Assembly: GCA_003268905.1 (NCBI GenBank)
Contig: QLTU01000015.1
Location: forward strand, 30,572-94,571
Origin: Acidovorax defluvii
GTDB lineage: Bacteria > Pseudomonadota > Gammaproteobacteria > Burkholderiales > Burkholderiaceae_C
DNA length: 64,000 nt
Direction: 5' to 3'
The notes under the pieces are model-generated. The model was not told where the DNA came from and searched no databases. It was given only the letters and a program-made list of their open reading frames with translations. The translations under genes were made by a program, and so were the position numbers. This document shows, in pieces, positions 51,871 to 64,000 of this stretch (the stretch's first letter is position 1; each line of letters opens with the position of its first letter).

Positions 51871-51929
51871 CAATGAGGGCGACGCATTGTGCCCGCGCCC
51901 CTGCAGCCGCCCTGCCCATAATGCAGCCC

Positions 51930-53627
51930 ATGACACGTCCCAGCCAGCTACTGCACCCCCACCGCGAACCCGTTGCCACCCGCCCCGCCGCTACCGTGCT
52001 GCTGCTGCGCGATACGCCGGACAACGGCGGTCTTGAAGTGCTGATGACCCGGCGCTCGGGCACCGCCAGCTTTGCACCCGGCGCCTACGTGTTCCCCGGC
52101 GGTGGCATCGACGCGCTCGATGCTTCGCCCGAGACGCACGCTGCCGCCGACCGCCGCCCGGCGCAGGGCGACCTGCATCTCACGCAGGCCATTGCCGCCA
52201 TCCGCGAGAGCTTTGAAGAGCTGGGCGTGCTGCTGGCGCGCCACACCGATGGCCCCCGCAAAGGGTTGATGGCCGACGCACACGACATTGCCGCCATCGA
52301 CCGCCACCTGCCCTTTGCCGCGCAGTGCCAGGCCCGTGGCCTGCGCCTGGCGGCCGACAGCGTGTACCTGCTGGCCCACTGGACGGGTGACCGCGACCTG
52401 CCGCGGCGCTTTGAGGTGCCGTTTCTCGTGGCCCGTATGCCCGAGGGCCAGGAGCCCGTGGCCGACGAAACCGAGCAGTTCGAGCCCGTGTGGGTGCGCC
52501 CGGCCGATGCGCTGGCGCGGCACGAGGCGGGCCAGTTCTTCATGATCTATCCCACCATCCGCACGCTGCAGCGGCTGGCCAAGTTTGGCACCACCCAGGC
52601 CGTGCTGGATGCCGTGGCGCACGAACAGCCTCTGTGGGTGAGCTGCCCGCGCGCCGGTTTGCTGGGCGGCACGGAAGCGCGCTACATGGAGGACGAGATG
52701 CCGTTTGGCGAACTGGCGCTGGTGTGCCCCGACGGGCAGATCGTGCACCCGCTCGACTGGCAGACCGAACGGGCCGTGCCGCTGCTGCGCAACGTGCAGC
52801 GCCTGACCGCCCCCAACCCCGGCGTGATGACCGGCCCCGGCACCAACACCTACCTGGTGGGCGACCCGGCCACCGGCTTCATCGCCATCGACCCCGGCCC
52901 GGCCGATGCCGAGCACCTGGACAAACTCTGGCGCGCTGCCGGGGGCGACATCTGCATGATTGTGTGCACCCACTCGCACCCCGACCACTCGCCAGGCGCC
53001 GCGCCGCTGCAGGCGCTGTGCGTGCAGGCGGGCCGCGCTGCGCCGCCCATTCTGGGCCTGCCCTCGGCCCCCACCGCACGCGCAGCCAGCGCCTTCACGC
53101 CCGACCGGGCGCTACAAAATAATGAGCTGCTGGCGCTTTCAGGACAAGCACCAGAGGGCAAAATCACCCACACCCTACAGGTCATCCATACACCCGGCCA
53201 CGCGGCCAACCATGTATGCCTGCTGCTGCAGGAAGATGGCCTGCTCTTCAGCGGCGACCACATCCTGAACGGCAGCACCACCGTGATCGACCCGCCCGAC
53301 GGCAACATGGCCGACTACCTGGATTCGCTGGACCGGCTCGATGCCTTGTGCGCCGAACACAACGTGGAATTCATCCTGCCGGCCCACGGCCATGTGCTGG
53401 GAGGCCCGATCAACGGCGCACGCAGCGCCATTGCCAAGCTCAAGGCCCACCGCCTGGCACGCGAGGCCAAGGTGCTGGCCGCCATGCAGGCGCTGCCCGA
53501 TGGCAGCATGGAAGACTGGGTGCAGCACGCGTACGACGACGTACCCCCGCGCATGTGGCCGGTGGCCCAGCGCTCGCTGCTGGCGCACGTAGAACGTATC
53601 CGCTCACAGCAGCCCGGCAACAACTGA
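51930..53627 (+). CDS. NUDIX hydrolase-metallo-beta-lactamase-fold fusion
   Basis: About 565 aa in two domains. Residues about 15-270 form a NUDT19/RP2p-type NUDIX hydrolase, with FPGGGIDALD and the RESFEELGVL box separated by an insertion of about 25 residues. Residues about 285-555 form an LACTB2-like MBL domain: GPGTNTYLVG, the metal-binding THSHPDHS, HTPGHAANH and FSGDHI. The pairing suggests linked hydrolysis of CoA or nucleotide esters, but that is inference. A dispersed repeat copy (53110-53165) encodes the segment around QNNELLALSGQAPEGK. Start at 51930 (MTRPSQ); 51921 is also possible. Confidence 0.88.
   Translation: MTRPSQLLHPHREPVATRPAATVLLLRDTPDNGGLEVLMTRRSGTASFAPGAYVFPGGGIDALDASPETHAAADRRPAQGDLHLTQAIAAIRESFEELGVLLARHTDGPRKGLMADAHDIAAIDRHLPFAAQCQARGLRLAADSVYLLAHWTGDRDLPRRFEVPFLVARMPEGQEPVADETEQFEPVWVRPADALARHEAGQFFMIYPTIRTLQRLAKFGTTQAVLDAVAHEQPLWVSCPRAGLLGGTEARYMEDEMPFGELALVCPDGQIVHPLDWQTERAVPLLRNVQRLTAPNPGVMTGPGTNTYLVGDPATGFIAIDPGPADAEHLDKLWRAAGGDICMIVCTHSHPDHSPGAAPLQALCVQAGRAAPPILGLPSAPTARAASAFTPDRALQNNELLALSGQAPEGKITHTLQVIHTPGHAANHVCLLLQEDGLLFSGDHILNGSTTVIDPPDGNMADYLDSLDRLDALCAEHNVEFILPAHGHVLGGPINGARSAIAKLKAHRLAREAKVLAAMQALPDGSMEDWVQHAYDDVPPRMWPVAQRSLLAHVERIRSQQPGNN
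53110..53165. repeat. Degenerate dispersed repeat translated in the NUDIX-MBL gene
   Basis: The sequence GCTACAAAATAATGAGCTGCTGGCGCTTTCAGGACAAGC resembles the family with its AGCTGCT-GGCGCTTT half-site. It is in frame in the MBL part. Confidence 0.5.
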
Positions 53628-53662
53628 ACCATAAGAACAACACACCCAACCGCATTCATTCA

Positions 53663-54448
53663 ATGACCGACAAGAACCCCGACCCCACCCACATCCGCCT
53701 GGCCAAGCGCGTGGCCGAACAACTGAACTGCTCGCGCAGCACGGCCGAGCAATTCATCGAAGGCGGCTTTGTGAGCGTGGACGGCCAGGTGGTCGAAGCC
53801 CCCGGCGCCCGCGTGCGCCCCGACCAGGCCGTAACGGTGGCGCAAGACGCCAGCCTGCTGGAGCTGACCCCGGTCACGCTGCTGCTGCACAAGCCGGCGG
53901 GGTTTGAAGCAGGCCTGGGCGTGCCAGCCGGGCAAGCGGCCCACGCCAGCCGCAGCCAGGGCGCCACCCCGGCCACCACGCTGCTGAATGCGGCATCGCA
54001 CCTGGGCGACGATGCCTCGGGCATCCGCGTGCTGCAGCGCCACTTCAAGCAGCTCGAATGCTTCACCCCCCTGCCCACCGAGGCCAGCGGCCTGGTGGTC
54101 TACACGCAGGACAAGCGCATTGCGCGCAAGCTGGCCGAAGACATCGAATCGCTGGAGCAGGAGTGCATCGTCGAGGTAAAGGGCAACATCGCACCCAACG
54201 GCCTGCAGCGCCTGTGCCACGGCCTCTCATTCAACGGCCGCCCGCTGCCCCCCATCAAGGTGAGCTGGCAAAGCGAGACCAAGCTGCGCTTTGCCCTCAA
54301 AGGCATCCGCCCCGGGCAGATTCCGGCCATGTGCGATGCCGTGGGCCTGACGGTGGTGGCCCTCAAGCGCATCCGCATCGGCCGCGTGCCACTAGCCAAG
54401 GTGCCCGAGGGGCAGTGGCGGTATCTGCAGCCGTGGGAGAAATTTTAA
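53663..54448 (+). CDS. RluF/RsuA-family pseudouridine synthase-like protein, catalytic motif altered
   Basis: About 261 aa. N-terminal S4 RNA-binding domain (RLAKRVAEQLNCSRSTAEQFI), then a pseudouridine-synthase fold (VTLLLHKPAGFEAG, PTEASGLVVYTQ, GRVPLAKVPEGQWR). The catalytic Asp of the family sits in a GRLDxDTxGLL motif; here the equivalent stretch is TPLPTEASGL, so that Asp appears to be replaced by Pro. It may therefore bind RNA without catalysis. The last 117 bp are repeated at 57921-58037, on the far side of the AAA+ gene. Confidence 0.8.
   Translation: MTDKNPDPTHIRLAKRVAEQLNCSRSTAEQFIEGGFVSVDGQVVEAPGARVRPDQAVTVAQDASLLELTPVTLLLHKPAGFEAGLGVPAGQAAHASRSQGATPATTLLNAASHLGDDASGIRVLQRHFKQLECFTPLPTEASGLVVYTQDKRIARKLAEDIESLEQECIVEVKGNIAPNGLQRLCHGLSFNGRPLPPIKVSWQSETKLRFALKGIRPGQIPAMCDAVGLTVVALKRIRIGRVPLAKVPEGQWRYLQPWEKF
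54332..54448 (+). repeat. Direct repeat copy 1: 3' end of the RluF-like gene
   Basis: A 117-bp block, from TGC GAT GCC GTG to the TAA stop, that matches 57921-58037 in the same orientation with 11 differences by hand count (about 90% identity). Many of the differences are synonymous or conservative. Confidence 0.9.
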
Positions 54449-54485
54449 TCGGCCCGCGTGGGATCGTCAGTACCAAGTCGCAGTA

Positions 54486-57400
54486 TTAGCGCTGAGCCAT
54501 AGCCAGTGCATCGCCTGATCGCAAACCCCTAACCGCCACTCTTTCAATGTCGGACGCTTCAATACCATCGACCGTCGCGAATTCGTCCTCTCCGATACGT
54601 ATCGCCTGCTGCTCGATAGCGGATTCAAACAACGTCCGCATCGCCCTTGCATTGCCGAAGCGGCCGTCCCGCTCTTCCAGCATTCGTGCAACGACCGGCT
54701 GCAACGCGTCGCGCGCGCTGTCGCTAAGACGATAGCTGTTGTCATTGGCCATGCGCTCAAATATCTGCACTAATTCCTCGGCCGTGTAATCAGCAAAAGT
54801 AACATAGCGCGTAAAGCGCGAAGCCAATCCGGGATTGGAGTCGATAAATAAATGCATCGGCTCACTGTAGCCAGCCACGATCACTGCCAACCGATTGCGG
54901 TTGTCTTCCATCAACTTAAGCAGGGAGTCGATGGCCTCGCCGCCATAATCGCTCTCGCCACCAGTCGACAACGTGTAGGCCTCGTCGATGAAAAGCACAC
55001 CGCCATAGGCCTGCTCGACTTTGGCCTGGGTCTTGACAGCGGTCTGGCCGATATAGCCCGCCACAAGATCGCTGCGCTGCACCTCCACCACATGGCCCTT
55101 CTCCAGCAGACCCAGCGCAGCGTAAAGCTCGCCCACCAGACGTGCCACAGTGGTCTTACCAGTACCCGGGTTACCAGCGAATACGAGGTGCAACGAAACA
55201 GGCGTCCAGTTCATGCCTGCTTCACGACGACGATCCTGTGCACGTACCAAGCTAGCAAGCTTGCGCACCTCGGCCTTCACCTCGGCCAGTCCAGTCAGCA
55301 TATCCAGCCGCGCAAGCAAAGCGCTGAAGTCCAGCTCCTCGCGGCGCCCCAGCGGGGGCAGATCAGCCACATCCAATACCACCGGATCGGCCTCAGACTG
55401 CTCACTCAATCGCTGTGCCTGCCGCTCGATCGCTCTGTCCAAATAGCTGCGCACACTGCGCGCATTGCCAAAATTCTTGCCTTTGGTCCGCACCATCTGC
55501 TCAAACATCTGTCCTGCACGGGTCTCCGCTTCGAGCGTCAGACGCAATTGGCGCTGCACAACCAGTCGCCGGAACACTTCGGTCAACTCCGGTGCGTTGT
55601 AGTCAGGAAAGTCGATGTAACGATTAAAACGCGAACGCATACCGGGGTTGGCATCAAAGAAAGTTTCCATCTCGCGTTCATAGCCAGCGACGATCACCGC
55701 CATGCTACCGCGACGATCCTCCATTTCCTTCATCAGCGTAGCGATGGCTTCGGGTCCAAAGTCTCGGGGCGAATCGGGCACATACAGCGTGTAGGCCTCG
55801 TCAATAAAAAGAACACCATCCTTGGCTGAATCGATGATTTTTCGCGTCTTAGGCGCGGTTTCGCCAATGTGCACTGCGACCAGGCCACTTCGGTCCGTCT
55901 CGACTAAATGCCCTGACTTGAGTAACCCCAGCGCCGAAAAAATGTGGCCAACGATACGCGCCACTGTCGTCTTTCCTGTGCCGGGATTGCCCGTGAATAC
56001 CAAGTTCAGACCAATGACATTGCCAGCCACCCCAATTTCCGTGCGTCGGCGTTCAGCCTCCACCAGATTGATCAACTTACCCACCTCAGACTTCACCGAA
56101 GCCAAGCCCACTAGCTCATCAAGTTCATTGAGCGCCGTTTCAAGCGCGCTGCCATCGTGCAGATCACAGTGATGCAGGTCAATCTGCGCCTCGGGATCGC
56201 GCGACATACGTCCTTTGCGGTGCCCCGCAATACGGCAACGCACCGCCTTGATCTTGGAACGACCCTCGGCCACTAGCGCTACTTGCTCGCCGCCATGCAA
56301 CGTGCAGTCAGTAAGCTTGACCTCTGCGCTGTCCTCCGACTCCACAGCCGCTTCAGAGGTACCACTGATCGACAGGCCTACCACCTCGCATACGCTCTCG
56401 CCCCGGATCCAAATTCCATTGGATTGCGTGTCTACAATTCTTCCGCCATGCAGGCTGATGTGCGCCTTGCCATTGGCAATCACTGCAGGATAGGTCGGAC
56501 CTCCTCCCACCAATTCGCACTCCTTGAGCACAGCTGAGCCGTTATCGATAACACACAGACTGTTCTTTAGACTTCCATTGACACGACAGCGATTGGCCTC
56601 CAGTCGCGCATCGCCCTTCACAAGAAAACCTACCCCTTGCCCATCAGATAGAGTTAAGTCCTCAACCTGCATCTGTGACTTGCCTATGGCGACTAGACCA
56701 TGTTGCCAACCACCTTCCAACTCACAATTAGTGAGCTTGAGTTGGGCGCTGCCCTCCGTTGTCGCTGCGGCGCTAGACGTGCCTTTAATCTTCATCTCCC
56801 TGATCTCGCACACACTCTCGTCCGTGAGCCTAATGCCTTGTGCAGAAGGGTTGGTGATATTGCCACCATGAAGAGTGACACGCGCCTTTTGATTGACGCA
56901 CACAGACGGAAACTTGGCTCCACCGCCACGCAAATCACAATCCTTAAGCACCGCAGAGCCGTTTTCGTAAACCCACAGATCGTTCTTGCCGCCGTCACTG
57001 AAGCTGCAGCGAATGGCTTCCAGCCGTGCATTTCCCTGCACATGTAAACCTACCTCTTGACAGCCTGAGATAGTTACATCCTCCACCTGTGCATAAACCG
57101 ACCCGCTCAATTTCAGCGCATCCTTCACTGCCGCACGGATCGCTGAGGCGCGAATGTCCAGCTTGCCCCCATCTGCTGAAACCCCCGCGCCTTCCAAATC
57201 CAAGCCCTGAGCATCAAGCTGGCCTTGAACCATAACCACCCCCGCACCCTCATAGCCCTTCCATTGGGTATCGCGCACAACCAGTGATGTCGGACGCGAG
57301 TCTGCACCATTGACGCGGATCACGCCCCGGCCTTGTACCTGCAAGAAGTCGGCACGCGCACCGGCCTTAATCACCATTACGTCACCATCCCCCTCCAGAC

Positions 57401-57692
57401 GGCACCGCTGCATTTGCAGTTTGGCCCCGGACTGAAGCGTAATCGGCGCTACGACGACCATGTCTTGGAGAACAAGCTCCACACCAGACACGACTTCGAT
57501 GGGGTCCCGCAGCACCACCTGCTCACGTCGCTCACGCGGAGCCAGGGTCATCGACTTGGTGAAAGTGATGCGATCACCACTGCGCTGGATCTCTGGCGAA
57601 ATGCTCAGTTGATCGCCAGGCTGTGCCTTCTCCACAGCATCGCTCAAATTTTTCGGGCTGAATAGGCCGTAGCCAACTTTTCGGATGCTCAT
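54486..57692 (-). CDS. Parallel beta-helix protein fused to two CbxX/SpoVK-type AAA+ ATPase modules
   Basis: About 1068 aa. Residues about 60-510 are built from short repeats with regularly spaced Gly/Val and polar turns, reading as a right-handed parallel beta-helix; a 140-residue unit is duplicated (about 203-342 and 343-485). Two AAA+ modules follow. Module 1 has Walker [10 protein letters not shown] at 568-576 and Walker [10 protein letters not shown] around 628-636; module 2 has GNPGTGKTT at 840-848 and LFIDEAYTL around 900-908. The pore-loop equivalents are [10 protein letters not shown] and [10 protein letters not shown]. Modules of this type occur in CbbX, SpoVK, ClpK and EccA. The start at 57692 (MSIRKVGYG) is assumed. 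Lower GC and different codon use than its neighbours, and flanking direct repeats, point to horizontal gain. Function unknown. Confidence 0.85.
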
Positions 57693-57720
57693 GTAATGAA
57701 CAGGGTAGTTGAAGATAAGG

Positions 57721-57744
57721 GTTACACATCGTGATGTTACACAT
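57721..57744. promoter_or_regulatory. Tandem GTTACACAT motif upstream of the AAA+ gene
   Basis: GTTACACAT occurs at 57721-57729 and again at 57736-57744, 15 bp apart and in the same direction, about 30-50 bp before the assumed start. A repeated 9-mer in the promoter area could bind a regulator; this is inferred. Confidence 0.4.
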
Positions 57745-57896
57745 GGCGAAAGCACCACCAAAAAGATATACAGCAGCACAACGACCACCCGTGATCCTCA
57801 ATATGCCTATCGTCGCTCGCGGGAGGTACCGCCCTTCCTTGTCCGCAGTTATCAAACCATGGACACAGCGCTGAGTACCGCGGGCTGAGGCAACTG

Positions 57897-58037
57897 ATGA
57901 CTCTTGGAATACCATCGATCTGTGAGGCCGTGGGCCTGCGGGTGATGGCCCTCAAGCGCATCCGCATCGGCCGCGTGCCACTGGCCAAGGTGCCCGAGGG
58001 GCAGTGGCGCTATCTGCAGCCGTGGGAGCGGTTCTAA
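57897..58037 (+). pseudogene. Stranded 3' end of an RluF-like gene (direct repeat copy 2)
   Basis: A 46-codon open stretch beginning ATG ACT CTT GGA. Its last 38 residues (CEAVGLRVMALKRIRI, then GRVPLAKVPEGQWRYLQPW) match the C-terminus of the RluF-like protein at 53663-54448, except for four residues. Even the preceding GIPSI corresponds to GQIPAM in the intact gene. It lacks the S4 and catalytic parts and lies right beyond the AAA+ gene, so it is best read as the displaced original gene end. Confidence 0.88.
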
Positions 58038-58084
58038 GACGTTTTTGGCACATGGCGCCATAGCGCGACGCGGTTGCGCAGCAC

Positions 58085-58142
58085 CATCAAAAACAATAGC
58101 TGCAATCGCTTACTCCACAAGCACAAACGCCCATTTTGATGA
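58085..58142. repeat. Degenerate dispersed repeat upstream of yjgN
   Basis: CAAAAACAATAGCTGCAATCGC then AAGCACAAACGCCCATTTTG follow the repeat's AT-rich end, AGCTGC half-site and a weakened second half-site. It precedes the yjgN start by about 55 bp. Confidence 0.45.
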
Positions 58143-58195
58143 AGACTTTTTACCACCACCGCTGATACACTGCGCTGCAACTCTGGAGGGAGTTC

Positions 58196-59911
58196 ATGAA
58201 CCACAACGATTCAGGCAGTGCAGCGCAACTGCCCCCCAACCTGGCCCTGCAGAGCATCGAGGCCCATCCCCTGGAATTCACGGGCAGTGGCGGCGAATAT
58301 TTCCGCGTGTGGATCGTGAATGTGCTGCTGGGCATTCTCACGCTGGGTTTCTACACCCCCTGGGCACGCCGGCGCACGGCCCAGTATTTCTATGACCACA
58401 GCATGGTGGCCGGCAGTCCGCTGGAGTTCACTGCGCAGCAGCGCAAGATGGTGATGGGCTTTGTGATGCTGGTGCTGCTCACCGTGGCCTACAACATTGC
58501 CGCCGAGTCGGGGCAGGACACGGCGGTGGCGCTGTTTCTGTTGGCTGGCGCGGTGCTGGCGCCCTTCATCTGGGCCAGTGCCATGCGTTTTCGCCTGGGG
58601 GCCACGCGCTGGCGCGGCTTGCGCCTGCAGTTCACCGCCAGCTGGCGCGAGGTTTATACCGCCAGCTGGCCGGTGTTTGCCCTGGCGCTGGTGTGGATGG
58701 CCGTGGTGTTCGGGCTGCAGGCCCTGGCGCCAGAGGTGGCGCAAGCGGCCCCGGGCCTGGCGGGCGAGAAAGTGCGCAAATCGCTGCCGGCCTTCACCGC
58801 GCCCATGGGGGCCTTGCTGGCGCTGGGTCTGGTGCTGTCATTGCTGTGCATCATTCGCCTTGAATACAACTACAAGAGCCTGCTGGTGCTGCGCGCCCAC
58901 CTGGGCACCGAGCCGGGCCGCTGGAAGCCCGTGTACATGGATTTCGTCAAGATCTGGCTGGCCACGGTGGCGGTGTTCATCGTATCGGCCCTGGCGATGG
59001 GCGCCCTGCTGGCCGCGCTGGCGGGCGGCTCTTTCGCACTGTTAAGATTCGCCGCCATGAGTTACACCGCCCAAGACATCTTGAACACGCTGGACGCGAC
59101 CGGCCTGGACGACATGCCCATGTTCGACGCCGGCACCGCCTTCATTGCGCCCCGGCTGGACATCTTTCGCGACGACGCGCACTGGGCCATCGTCTTCAAC
59201 ATGGTGGGTTGGGACCAGGATGTGCACACCCACGTTTACCCGCTGGGCCCGCGCATGCGCATGCACACCTGGATGGGCTACCTGAATGCGCAGCATGGCG
59301 ACTGGCAGGCCAATGCCGAACAGCAACTGCGCGCCCATGCCGACGACCCGTTCGCCCTGGCCCAGGCCATGATCGAGGGGCATACGCTGGGCACGGGTTT
59401 TGTGGGCGAGCAGGTGCAGCAGCTGCAGGACATTCACCAGCATTACCACCAGTCGGTGGCGCCCAGCGGGCCGTCGGAAGACGACAAGTTTCTGCACCCC
59501 GGCGAGCTGGAAATCGACTACGTCAGCGACGATGCGCTGGAAAACGGCCTGCCCGTGGCCGCCAGCGTGCGTGGCCAGCCAATCGATGCGGCCGAGCTGG
59601 CAGAGCTGCAGCGCCTGGCGCGCAGCAACCAGAGCGAGGGCATCGCGCCCAGCTTCGTCATCGCCTTCATTCAGAAGCACCACGAACAGCTGTGGGCGCG
59701 TCCCGAAGAGATGGCGATCTTCTTCGAAGGCGGCCTGCCGCCGCATTTCATGACGCTGACCGAATGGGAAACCCCGGACGTGTCCGGCGAACAAAAACCC
59801 GGCAGCATGCCCAGCTGGCAAAGCCTGGCGCAAGCCATTGCGCAGAATGACCGCAGCGCCTACCAGGCAGGCCCACCCAATACGGACTGGCGCCGCTGGG
59901 AGAACCTGTGA
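58196..59911 (+). CDS. Chimeric frame: N-terminal half of YjgN (DUF898) joined to a DUF7003-type protein
   Basis: One open frame of 571 codons. Residues 1-about 280 are a polytopic DUF898/YjgN protein with about six helices and the family motif FTPWARRRTAQYFYD. The YjgN part stops at about 59045; its missing C-terminal part is found at 60270-60659. From residue 288 on (MSYTAQDILNTLDATGLDD) the sequence is a soluble protein of about 284 aa, like DUF7003. A start of its own lies at ATG 59057. The frame continues by chance across the junction. It may produce a fused or a separate protein; the yjgN gene itself is broken. Confidence 0.75.
   Translation: MNHNDSGSAAQLPPNLALQSIEAHPLEFTGSGGEYFRVWIVNVLLGILTLGFYTPWARRRTAQYFYDHSMVAGSPLEFTAQQRKMVMGFVMLVLLTVAYNIAAESGQDTAVALFLLAGAVLAPFIWASAMRFRLGATRWRGLRLQFTASWREVYTASWPVFALALVWMAVVFGLQALAPEVAQAAPGLAGEKVRKSLPAFTAPMGALLALGLVLSLLCIIRLEYNYKSLLVLRAHLGTEPGRWKPVYMDFVKIWLATVAVFIVSALAMGALLAALAGGSFALLRFAAMSYTAQDILNTLDATGLDDMPMFDAGTAFIAPRLDIFRDDAHWAIVFNMVGWDQDVHTHVYPLGPRMRMHTWMGYLNAQHGDWQANAEQQLRAHADDPFALAQAMIEGHTLGTGFVGEQVQQLQDIHQHYHQSVAPSGPSEDDKFLHPGELEIDYVSDDALENGLPVAASVRGQPIDAAELAELQRLARSNQSEGIAPSFVIAFIQKHHEQLWARPEEMAIFFEGGLPPHFMTLTEWETPDVSGEQKPGSMPSWQSLAQAIAQNDRSAYQAGPPNTDWRRWENL
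59057..59911 (+). other. DUF7003-type gene within the insertion (possible independent start)
   Basis: ATG 59057 starts MSYTAQDILNTLD, which resembles a normal N-terminus of the DUF7003 family (DILxxLD, then WAIVFNMVGW and the short GPRMRMHTWMGYL stretch). About 284 aa, soluble. Listed separately because translation may begin here rather than at 58196. Function unknown. Confidence 0.65.
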
Positions 59912-59945
59912 GCGCCTTCATTCAGATGGCTGCGCGCTCACCCCA

Positions 59946-60010
59946 TTAATATTAATTTGATAGCTGCCACCGCAGTGTAGACGGGCGCTAGAGAGGCTTT
60001 TTATTCAAAT
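59946..60010. repeat. Dispersed repeat inside the yjgN insertion
   Basis: TTTGATAGCTGCCACCGC then GGGCGCTAGAGAGGCTTTTT follows the family layout. It sits after the DUF7003-type gene within the inserted DNA. Confidence 0.6.
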
Positions 60011-60120
60011 CTGGGGGTAGGCGCTGGATCAGCCGCAGATCGCGCGGCACTACGCCCGCAAACACTGTGGCCCGTTGCGCCGGCCGCAGGCCGAACTGGC
60101 GCGCAGACACGGCGGGCGAA
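59988..60120 (-). pseudogene. Unidentified C-terminal coding remnant
   Basis: On the minus strand a stop-free stretch of about 40 codons reads through RQFGLRPAQRATVFAGVV and PRDLRLIQRLPPDLN, then ends with TAG inside the repeat at 59946. It looks like the tail of some gene, but I cannot name it. Confidence 0.35.
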
Positions 60121-60202
60121 CACGGCGGGCGGACGATCTTTGCACGTTCATGCCAAGTTCATGCCGCCTTCAGCTGCCCTGCGCACGGGCTTACACGCGG
60201 GC

Positions 60203-60268
60203 TTACAAGGCGCGCTGGATGATGATCTTTTGCACGTCGCTGGTGCCTTCGTAGATCTGGCACACGCG
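60203..60268 (-). pseudogene. 3'-terminal fragment of an acyl-CoA dehydrogenase gene
   Basis: Minus-strand codons read RVCQIYEGTSDVQKIIIQRAL then stop, the highly conserved C-terminus of acyl-CoA dehydrogenases. The homology stops near 60268, where yjgN sequence resumes, so only about 21 codons of the donor gene are present. Confidence 0.85.
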
Positions 60269-60269
60269 C

Positions 60270-60659
60270 ACGTGGCTGGTGGTGGTGATTTTTGTGGCCA
60301 TCGTGGGCGGTATCTTCTTGCTGTTGCTGGCCTCGGCACCGGCCCGCGCCTACCGTGAGGCGCGCATGTTCCAGCTGATGTGGAGCAACGTGGGCGTGAG
60401 CCAGGTGGCACGCTTCAAATGCCAGCTGGGCACGGGCCGCTATGTGCTGCTGCGCCTGAAAAACATGCTGCTGACCCTGCTCACCCTGGGCCTGTACCGG
60501 CCCTTTGCGCGGGTCAGCGAATACCGCATGAAGTTCGAGTCGGTCACGCTGCACATCAAGGGCGGCGTGGACCAGATCGCCGGCATCCTGGTGCGCCAGC
60601 AGCAAGGCGGCCTGGGCGATGCCCTGGCCGATGCCGCTGGGCTGGACCTGATTGGATGA
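60270..60659 (+). pseudogene. C-terminal half of YjgN (DUF898)
   Basis: From about VVVIFVAIVGGIFLLLLASA through MFQLMWSNVGVSQVARF and LLTLLTLGLYRPFARV to the stop. These are the last helices and the conserved LGLYRPFARV motif of DUF898 proteins, absent from the 58196 frame. Together the halves give about 405 residues, the family's usual length. No good start is available (GTG 60279 at best). Confidence 0.85.
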
Positions 60660-60669
60660 GCAAGAACAC

Positions 60670-60790
60670 CTCCCTGAGCGGCTGCGCCGCTTCCCCCCGC
60701 TCTCACATCGCTGCGGGGCGGCCCTTGCGCGGGGGCCGCTGGGCTGGGCCGCGCCAGTTTTTGGGGTTGGTGCGCTGCGCGGACGAGGCG
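60670..60790. repeat. GC-rich intergenic element before the M48 peptidase gene
   Basis: CTGAGCGGCTGCGCCGCTTCCCC starts a hairpin-rich block that closely resembles the reverse complement of 15743-15786 downstream of ftsZ. Further stems (GCGGGGCGGCCC, GCGCGGGGGCCGC) follow. Confidence 0.55.
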
Positions 60791-60795
60791 GCCAG

Positions 60796-62004
60796 GTGAA
60801 CAGTTCTCACGAATCCACCGGCGCGCCGGGCGATCTGCTGCCCGCACGCTGGTTTGATGGCCTGAGCAGCAAGGCGCAGCCGGTGATGGTGGGTCTGCAG
60901 CCCACGCCCAAGGGCCCCTCGCTGCTGCTGCACCCGATGGCGGCGCCGGGCGCGGCACCCCGTGTATTCACCCATGACCAGGTGGCTTGGCCGCAGGCCT
61001 GGAGCGCACACCGGTCGCCGCGGCGCGTGGTGGTCGATTTGCGCGACCACGGCAGCCTTGAAATCGACGCCACGGCGCAGTGGCACGCCGCACTGGCCGC
61101 GGCGGGTGCGCGCCCTGGCCTGGCCCAGCGCATGCAGATCCACTGGCCCGTGCTGCTGGCCGTGGCGGTGGCCGCCGCCGTGGCTGTTGCGCTGTTTTAC
61201 CGCTTTGGCACCCCTTGGGCAGCCACCCAGCTCACGCGGTATGTGCCGCTGTCGTGGGAAACCAGCCTGGCCGAAAACGCCTTGCAGCAGATGGACGAGG
61301 GCACGCTCAAGCCCAGCAAGCTGCCCGCCGAACGGCAGGCCCAGCTGCGCGCCCGCTTTGACCAGCTGGCGCAGCAAACGCCACCGGCGCTGCAGCGCTA
61401 CCGCGGCTATGCACCCCGGCTCACGCTGGCCTTTCGTTCGGGCATGGGCGCCAATGCCTTCGCACTGCCCGGCGGCACGGTGGTGATGACGGACGCCCTG
61501 GTGCGGGTTGCTGCCGAGAAGGGCCTGGACGACAACGCGCTGATCGGTGTGCTGGCCCACGAAATCGGCCATGTGGCGCACCGCCACACCACGCGCATGC
61601 TGGTAGAGCAAGGCGTGCTCAACGTGGGCCTGGGCCTGGCGCTGGGAGATGTGTCGTCCGTGCTGTCCACGGGCGGTTCGCTGCTCACCGGCCTAGCCTA
61701 CCGCCGCAACCACGAGCGCGAGGCCGACTGCTTTGCCATCGCACTGATGGGCCACGCCGCGCTGCCCACGGCGCCCATGGGCCAGTTGCTGCTGGCCATT
61801 GCGCACGGCGAAGAAAATGCGCAAGAGAAGGCCGAAGCGCAGGCACAAGCGAAGGGCGAAACGAAGGCCGGCAAGCCCGCCGATACCAAGCGAGCCCCAC
61901 CCGGGGAGCAAGGCGTGTGGTCGTGGCTCAGCAGCCACCCGGATACGGTGGAGCGCGCCACCGAGCTGGAACGCGGCCATGCACCGCGTTGCGCTGCGCC
62001 TTGA
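60796..62004 (+). CDS. M48-family zinc metallopeptidase
   Basis: About 402 aa from GTG 60796. A hydrophobic helix at about residues 116-140 anchors a peptidase domain with the active-site HEIGHVAHRH (about 255-264) and the third ligand region NHEREAD. The closing HPDTVERATELE is typical of M48C proteins. A low-complexity Ala/Lys/Glu stretch (about 340-375) precedes it. M48 genes often follow yjgN in related genomes, and here the yjgN fragment ends 137 bp upstream. The start is uncertain because the upstream part is a repeat. Confidence 0.85.
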   Translation: MNSSHESTGAPGDLLPARWFDGLSSKAQPVMVGLQPTPKGPSLLLHPMAAPGAAPRVFTHDQVAWPQAWSAHRSPRRVVVDLRDHGSLEIDATAQWHAALAAAGARPGLAQRMQIHWPVLLAVAVAAAVAVALFYRFGTPWAATQLTRYVPLSWETSLAENALQQMDEGTLKPSKLPAERQAQLRARFDQLAQQTPPALQRYRGYAPRLTLAFRSGMGANAFALPGGTVVMTDALVRVAAEKGLDDNALIGVLAHEIGHVAHRHTTRMLVEQGVLNVGLGLALGDVSSVLSTGGSLLTGLAYRRNHEREADCFAIALMGHAALPTAPMGQLLLAIAHGEENAQEKAEAQAQAKGETKAGKPADTKRAPPGEQGVWSWLSSHPDTVERATELERGHAPRCAAP

Positions 62005-62027
62005 TTGAACGCCGCGATTTACTTCAG

Positions 62028-62090
62028 AATAATCAAAAACAATAGCGCACTGCGCTTATTGCATAAGCGCTGGCGCCTGTTTTCATGAAA
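62028..62090. repeat. Dispersed palindromic repeat between M48 peptidase and rnpB
   Basis: AATAGCGCACTGCGCTTATTGC then ATAAGCGCTGGCGCC, with a TTTTCATG tail. It lies between the convergent ends of the peptidase gene and rnpB. Confidence 0.7.
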
Positions 62091-62095
62091 AGTGT

Positions 62096-62544
62096 GAAGC
62101 GCGCCGATAAGCCGGATTCTGTGCACTGCCGGCCCTCTTGCGAAGACCCGCAGCGTGACCGCCATTACTCTGGGCCGGGTGTCGCCACCACGGCTCGATG
62201 CTACCTACCCGCCAACTCTGCGGAACCACATCAACGTTGGCCTACTTGGTATTGCTGCGCGTAGAGATTGCCCGTTTCACCCGAAGCGGGCACCGCCCGC
62301 TTCGGGTGGCTATGGTCTTGGAGGCTTGCGCCTCCAACCGTCTGGCTTGCGCCAGCCGTGCCCGCTTGCGCGGGCAACCGATAGAACACCTTCGGTGGCT
62401 TGCAGCCTGCTCCGACTCGTCTCTGTTGCTCTGATCCTCACCTCACGGTGGGCAGCCGTTAGCTGCTACGCTGTCCTGTGCAGTCCGGACGTTCCTCCAG
62501 TGCCTGGTTTCCCAGATTGCACCAGCGGCGGTCTGGCGCGCTTC
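62096..62544 (-). ncRNA. rnpB: RNase P RNA, bacterial class A
   Basis: Catalytic RNA of RNase P, which matures tRNA 5' ends. On the minus strand it begins GAAGCGCGCC and ends GGCGCGCUUC, a perfect 10-bp P1 helix. The conserved GGAGGAACGUCCGGACU near the 5' end and the 3' CAGAAUCCGGCUUAUCGG are in place, as is the AGAGCAACAGAGACGAG core. A 14-bp perfect hairpin (CACCCGAAGCGGGC at 62279-62310) and three GCUUGCGC-type stems lengthen it to about 449 nt, somewhat above the usual size. Confidence 0.93.
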
Positions 62545-62625
62545 ACGGGGGCGATTGTCCCAGATTTCGCCGTGCAGGCCGGGCACGCCCGCTGTGGCGC
62601 ACGTTTTACGCAAGCTTTAGACACC

Positions 62626-63261
62626 ATGACCACTACGCATCCACCGCAATCCACGCCAACCACGCCGTCGTCGCATTTCGACGCTGCCGCCCGCGACTGG
62701 GACCAGCGCCCCATGTCGCAGCAACTGGCCGCTGTGCCGCCGCTGCTGCTGGCGCATCTGCCGCTGTCGCCCACCGACCAGGTGCTCGACTTTGGCGCGG
62801 GCACCGGCCTGCTGGCCACGCAGATTGCACCCAAGGTGGCGCATGTCACCGCGCTGGACATGTCTGCCGCCATGCTGCAGGTGCTGGACGAAAAAGGCGT
62901 TGCCAACATCACCACGCACCATGGCGACATTTTTGACGGCCTGCCGGGGCGCTACCACGCCATCGTGAGCTGCATGGCCCTGCACCATGTGGCCGACACC
63001 GCCGCGTTGATGCGCGCCTTTGCCGCTGCGCTGCACCCCGGCGGGCGCATTGCGCTGGTGGATCTGTATGCCGAAGACGGCAGCTTTCACGGCGACAACG
63101 CCGCCAAGGGCGTGCAGCACCTGGGTTTTGCGCCCGAAGCCTTGCAGGCGCAGGCCGAGCAGGCGGGCCTGCAAGGCATCGTCTTTACCGGCATCCTGCA
63201 CATGCAGCACCGCAATGGCCAAAGCTATCCGCTGTTTTTGATGACGGGGCACAAACCATGA
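62626..63261 (+). CDS. Class I SAM-dependent methyltransferase
   Basis: About 211 aa from ATG 62626. Motif I VLDFGAGTGLLATQIAP (residues about 51-67), motif post-I VTALDMSAAMLQVL and the VSCMALHHV segment define a class I methyltransferase like UbiE/Coq5-type small-molecule enzymes. The substrate is unknown. The longer open frame back to 62155 overlaps rnpB and is not coding. Confidence 0.85.
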   Translation: MTTTHPPQSTPTTPSSHFDAAARDWDQRPMSQQLAAVPPLLLAHLPLSPTDQVLDFGAGTGLLATQIAPKVAHVTALDMSAAMLQVLDEKGVANITTHHGDIFDGLPGRYHAIVSCMALHHVADTAALMRAFAAALHPGGRIALVDLYAEDGSFHGDNAAKGVQHLGFAPEALQAQAEQAGLQGIVFTGILHMQHRNGQSYPLFLMTGHKP

Positions 63262-63262
63262 T

Positions 63263-63319
63263 TCAACATTGATAGCTGCACCCGCTTGATGGACGGCGGT
63301 TACAGCCCGTTTTCATCTA
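63263..63319. repeat. Degenerate dispersed repeat after the methyltransferase
   Basis: ATTGATAGCTGCACCCGCTTG followed by GGCGGTTACAGCCCGTTTTC keeps the AT-rich end, AGCTGC half-site and T-run but has lost the second AGCGCTAGC half. Confidence 0.45.
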
Positions 63320-63470
63320 TAAATTTGGCCGAGGCCGCCCGCCTGCGGGCACTGCACACCGCCCGCAGGCTGCGATGCCCCTGCGCTGTGCATATCCATA
63401 TAGCCGCTGCGCAGAACAAGTGGTTCAGAATGCGTGCCAACCCCTTTTCACTTCCCCTTCAGGAGACGCC

Positions 63471-64000
63471 ATGAAAGTCGACAACGTTCTGCAAACCATT
63501 GGCAACACGCCGCATGTGCGCATCAACCGCCTGTTTGGCGCGGGCGCCAACGTGTGGATCAAGTCCGAGTGCGGCAACCCCGGCGGCTCCATCAAAGACC
63601 GCATTGCGCTGGCCATGGTGGAAGACGCCGAGAAATCGGGCGCCCTGCAACCGGGCGGCACCATCATCGAGCCCACCAGCGGCAACACCGGTGTGGGCCT
63701 GGCCATGGTGGCGGCCGTCAAGGGCTACAAGCTGGTTCTGGTGATGCCCGACAGCATGAGCATCGAGCGCCGCCGCCTGATGCTGGCCTATGGCGCCAGC
63801 TTCGACCTGACGCCGCGCGAAAAGGGCATGAAGGGCGCCATTGCCCGCGCCGAAGAGCTCAAGGCCCAGACGCCCGGTGCGTGGATTCCGCAGCAGTTCG
63901 AAAACCCCGCCAACGTTGACGTGCATGTGCGCACCACGGCCCAGGAAATCCTGGCCGACTTTCCCGACGGGCTGGATGCGCTGATTACCGGCGTGGGCAC
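63471..64000 (+). CDS. cysK: Cysteine synthase A, 5' part
   Basis: PLP enzyme that makes cysteine from O-acetylserine and sulfide; only the first 176 codons are inside the window. AGGAG lies 6 bp before ATG 63471. The PLP-binding Lys is in GGSIKDRIA (about residues 40-48), and the substrate loop [10 protein letters not shown] (about 69-78) is present. CysM is the main alternative; the N-terminal sequence [14 protein letters not shown] fits CysK better, but I would not exclude it. Confidence 0.85.

Follow-up and report, generated by a model that had tools for sequence, protein, structure and literature searches.

SCCmec is inserted in the end of rlmH, an rRNA-modification gene, and brings its own serine recombinases. 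The candidate islet that we describe here in Acidovorax defluvii likewise lies in the 3′ end of an rRNA-modification gene, an rluF-like pseudouridine synthase gene, yet only SCCmec has serine recombinases of its own. A review (PMC5704250) places IMEs and islands in the 3′ ends of protein genes, such as SGI1 in trmE and other elements in guaA, rplL and rpsI. The islet shares with these the 3′ end of a housekeeping gene as its site and a host gene that is kept whole; unlike them, it carries no recombinase. Another counterpart is the CIME as portrayed in the same review (PMC5704250), which shares with the islet direct repeats of which one restores a housekeeping gene’s end, the absence of an integrase and a content of cargo only. 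The islet departs from a CIME in holding just one gene and, as far as the loci read reach, in showing no sign of an ICE or IME ancestor. It looks like a decayed element without an integrase in a gene’s 3′ end, a kind that is already known, and what is new in this analysis is the reciprocal mosaic of its two tails. The word ‘pseudouridine’ is absent from the main text of that review, and our literature search returned no paper joining pseudouridine synthase with attachment site, integrase, integrative and direct repeats; we make no claim that an element targeting rluF is new to the literature.

The first-pass annotation of the window, the 64,000-nt stretch of DNA analysed here, had described a block at 54332-54448 with a second copy at 57921-58037, the two differing at 11 of 117 nt, the outer copy being a gene end only, and between the copies a single large gene and no integrase. 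Exact alignment gave the same count within a slightly longer, ungapped repeat, which begins 12 nt to the left of 54332 and measures 129 nt at 88% identity, with a spacing of 3589 nt (Table 1). Both copies encode the same 42-residue RluF-family C-terminus, so the repeat is no chance match. The inner tail is the end of an intact pseudouridine synthase gene of 261 aa in the RsuA/RluF group, whose product has an S4 domain and matches the TIGR00093, RsuA and RluF models, all below their cut-offs. The outer tail encodes the last 42 residues only and is preceded by sequence unrelated to the gene; in its last 30 codons the protein is unchanged. An AAA+ gene on the minus strand, hereafter the cargo gene, is the only long ORF with a family match between the tails, and neither the ORFs nor the family matches of this region revealed an integrase or a transfer gene. 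The earlier description of the layout therefore holds in each of these points, and the pseudouridine synthase gene is open and whole after the entry of the islet.

Table 1. Features of the islet and of the gene in which it lies (positions refer to the window).
Feature	Position	Strand	Basis
Target gene, intact RsuA/RluF-group pseudouridine synthase, 261 aa	53663..54448	+	S4 domain; family models; genus orthologues
Inner tail copy, apparent hybrid (5′ part native, 3′ part foreign)	54320..54448	+	Repeat alignment and relatives
37-nt identical stretch, inner side, where the exchange is placed	54357..54393	+	Tail alignment
Cargo gene, 1068 aa, beta-helix and two AAA+ modules; mechanical ORF to 57788	54486..57692	-	ORF and domains
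Upstream region of the cargo gene, to the outer tail	57693..57908	.	Sequence; promoter scan equal to shuffles
Outer tail copy, apparent hybrid (5′ foreign, 3′ native); last 42 codons and stop	57909..58037	+	Repeat alignment and relatives
37-nt identical stretch, outer side	57946..57982	+	Tail alignment
Native spacer, rluF-like gene to DUF898 gene	58038..58195	.	Aligns with the relatives’ spacer

What does the site look like in relatives? An rluF-like orthologue is present in 46 of 47 genus genomes, our own included, G001 being the one without a match. All 45 other genus loci have no AAA+ gene at the site and one rluF-like end, as the first-pass annotation had predicted for genomes without that gene; 15 loci of other genera have one tail as well. 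At none of these 60 loci does a second tail occur within the stretch read, which reached up to about 6 kb downstream and was shorter where contigs end early. Among the genus loci, the rluF-like gene is followed by a DUF898 gene at 38 (62 to 849 nt on) and by the RNase P RNA gene at seven (78 to 110 nt on). Equally predicted was that such a single end would run directly into the sequence at 58038, and this sequence indeed aligns with the relatives’ post-rluF spacer, with a best local score of 81 as against 27 at most for the sequence behind the inner copy; as G003, the closest relative used below, and six others have no DUF898 gene behind rluF, this flank was compared with less close relatives. 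In these seven (L043, L047, L052, L053, L067, L071 and L074), the RNase P RNA gene lies directly behind the rluF-like gene and the stretch read contains no DUF898 match. Since they do not form one clade in a tree of upstream sequence, DUF898 loss may have happened more than once.

The composition of the islet is foreign. The lower GC content remarked on previously is borne out by a value of 0.563 for 54449-57908 versus 0.688 for 51873-54319, and among 303 sliding 3.46-kb segments of the window, the one starting at 54401 has the lowest GC. Codon usage agrees, with a GC of 0.566 and a GC3 of 0.618 in the cargo gene versus a GC3 of 0.81-0.89 in six coding stretches of the same region. The duplication of the tail, the empty site in relatives and the foreign composition constitute direct evidence, and the empty sites, the native outer flank and the composition support the overall reading of an insert in the 3′ end of the RluF-like gene. 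A tRNA-linked island was rejected, because the 64-kb window contains neither a tRNA nor a tmRNA. RNase P RNA was the only RNA family found in 53000-64000, and a promoter and terminator scan gave sites not in excess of shuffles.

About 1 kb beyond the islet, the DUF898 gene is itself broken: the relatives’ proteins of ~420 aa match from 58196 to ~59041 and then from ~60272 to 60659. The intervening insert (59041-60280), which within the genus is peculiar to our genome, contains a DUF7003 ORF (59057-59911), which is fused in frame with the DUF898 start and whose family is matched in one of the 47 genus genomes, our own. On the minus strand of this insert, 67 nt share 94% identity with contig C43 of our genome, and we take this piece to be the last codons of an acyl-CoA dehydrogenase gene. 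The two ends of the insert share no run of at least 9 nt, and we treat it as an event separate from the islet.

Which of the two tails is the resident one? Each looks hybrid, neither purely old nor purely new. For this comparison, G003 (L043) was chosen as the sister by a tree of the upstream sequence without the tail (46 rows, support 100/99, 92% identity). Of the 129 tail sites, 16 differ between the copies. At the first ten (54322 to 54356), G003 has the letters of the inner copy, at the following five (54394, 54421 and 54440-54442) those of the outer copy, and at 54445, the last, again those of the inner copy. In the 5′ part, the inner copy is identical to G003 over all 45 sites, the outer copy at 35 of them. 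The switch in preference has a Fisher p of 0.0014, or of 0.011 if codon 54440-54442 is counted once, and because the differing sites flank the identical stretch of 37 nt (Table 1), it is placed there. When the native hybrid is joined in silico, it matches G003 at 125 of 129 sites, while the inner copy reaches 121 and the outer copy 115. The foreign hybrid joined in the same way is matched by no compared locus above 114. The reciprocal hybrid state of the two tails, with a single exchange point within the 37 nt, is well supported. The first-pass annotation had proposed that the element entered the 3′ end of the gene and replaced it with its own version; the entry stands, but the inner copy does not seem to be wholly element-derived.

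In favour of the hybrid reading, all seven rnpB-adjacent relatives have CGG at 54440-54442, as does the outer copy. Several points speak against it: its 3′ half draws on five sites, of which three lie in a single codon, and the final one of the 16, 54445, shows the opposite preference in G003, L047 and L071. The lysine with which the inner copy ends is widespread in the genus (27 of 45 tails), so it could be a plain substitution. In these per-site tallies, one of the 45 genus rows (L072) is out of register by 6 nt, which leaves the comparison with G003 unaffected.

The differences between the tails suggest entry by a single crossover. We consider it likely that the stretch between them is a horizontally acquired single-gene islet, brought in by one reciprocal exchange with a circle. 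In this scenario, the incoming DNA would have been a circle bearing the AAA+ gene together with an rluF-like gene tail from another species, and it may earlier have resided in the rluF tail of another genome. Inside the identical stretch, the chromosomal tail and that of the circle would have undergone a single reciprocal exchange, adding an islet of 3589 nt per repeat unit and leaving an inner tail with native 5′ and foreign 3′ part, an outer tail with foreign 5′ and native 3′ part, and a whole host gene. As to the catalyst, a site-specific recombinase, supplied in trans or since lost, has a little less than an even chance in our view; RecA-type homologous exchange is a more tentative option, and entry as linear DNA, with two crossovers falling in that one stretch, is possible but doubtful. 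The 37 nt are also the longest identical run of the tails, so that RecA and a recombinase would leave the same trace in them. The locus offers a natural case in which both junctions, set against many empty sites, place the exchange point of an insertion within 37 nt with no integrase in sight.

Could the islet have entered without a circle? Homology-facilitated illegitimate recombination is reported as a process (PMC3240628), and here it would have involved linear DNA with a donor rluF tail and the AAA+ gene, paired by homology on the left and joined without homology on the right, at 57909 inside the recipient tail. Such an event accounts for the duplication, the empty site and the foreign composition, and the second insert, which has no flanking repeat, suggests that illegitimate joining may occur at this locus. 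It would, however, make the outer copy native throughout and decaying, and decay should be even, whereas the differences of the outer copy from G003 are uneven (10 of 45 sites in the 5′ part, 4 of 84 in the remainder; p 0.005) and its last 30 codons are protein-identical; we regard this route as rather unlikely. Similarly unlikely is a double crossover in which a relative with the rluF gene, the AAA+ gene and the rluF tail already in this order at the same place supplied linear DNA: the end product would be the same, again with no need for a circle, but the 37-nt stretch would have to take a crossover in each of the two repeats, and no such relative was found in the genomes searched, family and order being represented by samples. 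The genome is a draft of 83 contigs, which leaves some room for an assembly artefact at the repeat; this is very improbable, as both outer flanks are syntenic with relatives and two false joins would be needed. An old, vertically inherited gene, lost in relatives and with a locally duplicated tail, has nothing in its favour and is hardly credible given the synteny, the empty sites, the two different tails, the foreign composition and the lack of a full-length copy in the other 46 genus genomes.

Returning to the exchange with a circle, we looked for its traces elsewhere. No second islet was seen at an rluF-like site, either at the loci read in the genus and in other genera or, among the matches listed, in family genomes, and a DNA search of 399 family genomes, with mostly two candidates scored per genome, gave no other pair of near-copy tails among the matches listed. 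The 42-aa tail was matched in 28 of 399 family genomes, two tails being present in our own genome only. In phages, 20 records matched the rluF tail at E up to 1, all below 60% identity; in plasmids there were 16 records, 15 of them below 60% and the best (62.5%) annotated as a pseudouridine synthase; in viral contigs, none was confirmed. A donor with an rluF tail adjoining a cargo-type gene was not found in genome contigs, the family sample (299 genomes) or the order sample (399 genomes), which, like the lack of a second islet, counts against the proposed exchange. The islet might be a minimal passenger of a still undescribed kind, that is, a one-gene circle with a borrowed housekeeping-gene tail and no enzyme of its own, moving between species by virtue of that tail’s conservation, in which case the second insert would be another tail-bearing cassette that went off target; we deem this improbable. 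Discovery of the circle and of its catalyst would mean that conserved gene tails count as ready-made landing sites for passenger genes between species.

What does the islet carry? The mechanical call for the cargo ORF is 54486-57788, and the start at 57692, which gives 1068 aa, is likelier than that at 57788 because a relative from Massilia begins with nearly the same residues. The protein comprises a beta-helix region followed by two AAA+ modules of the CbxX/SpoVK/EccA type with lids, and the Walker A and Walker B motifs, GNPGTGKT and VLFIDEA, are present as two matching pairs. Among NCBIfam models, with scores summed over the two modules in each case, SpoVK (TIGR02881; 538.8, curated cut-off 422.95) and CbbX (TIGR02880; 466.5, cut-off 459.25) were passed, both being single-module models (261 and 284 positions) whose size the cargo protein, with its 1068 aa, two modules and beta-helix half, does not fit; EccA (TIGR03922) was not reached (445.5 bits, cut-off 466.65). 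Judging from these families, the cargo protein would be an ATP-driven remodelling machine of the CbxX/SpoVK/EccA class, its beta-helix half possibly binding a target. We do not claim an anti-phage system: PADLOC models (IetA, DolB, TRIP13 and others) reached no more than 52.8 bits, and their matches all fall in the AAA part. A phage origin was likewise discarded, with PHROG matches confined to the AAA part and no relative in viral contigs. Upstream of the AAA+ gene, GTTACACAT occurs twice at 57721-57744, 15 nt from start to start, and might be an operator.

Relatives of the cargo are scarce. None of full length was found in the other 46 genus genomes, three of which have single-module matches (45-47%) in frames of 330-342 aa. 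A search of genome contigs gave three relatives, the best being a gene of Massilia sp. BSC265 (L038:8055-10934) with 62% identity over 827 columns and the same beta-helix plus AAA+ architecture. Its surroundings are unlike the islet, as it lies downstream of caspase-domain, Adhesin_E-domain and weakly lipase-like genes and upstream of a GGDEF/EAL gene. Matches were obtained in three of 299 genomes of the family sample, our own included (the two others at 40-42%), and in one of 399 genomes of the order sample, again our own. Plasmids contributed 28 records, all below 60% identity; among the matches listed, beta-helix plus AAA+ proteins of Streptomyces plasmids, which by annotation share the architecture of the cargo, are 31-46% identical to it over the aligned part. 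We looked at the neighbourhoods of 8 of the 28 records, the eighth region (Methylobacterium) being without annotation; in the seven annotated regions read, eccCa was present in six and an S8 peptidase gene in all seven, each within 6 kb of the match. Six of the Streptomyces plasmid relatives (L109, L110, L112, L113, L115 and L116) adjoin both genes, as though they served that type VII system as its EccA. The plasmid proteins thus sit beside type VII secretion genes, whereas the islet cargo stands alone in a genome with no WXG100 match (the same search matched in 2 of 14 genomes as a control). The cargo is a relative of type VII secretion ATPases, alone in a proteobacterium with no detected WXG100 protein; a literature search on beta-helix and EccA found no paper naming a beta-helix.

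Three loci of the genus deserve mention in their own right. In L054 (G011), the gap of 849 nt before DUF898 contains a small ORF of ~84 codons, next to a single tail. Behind the rluF-like gene of L084 (G007) lie five separate DUF898 matches, as if in tandem copies. The rluF-like gene at G019:C12:78206-79045 gives two separate matches, to residues 1-93 and 89-261, and may hold a small insertion.
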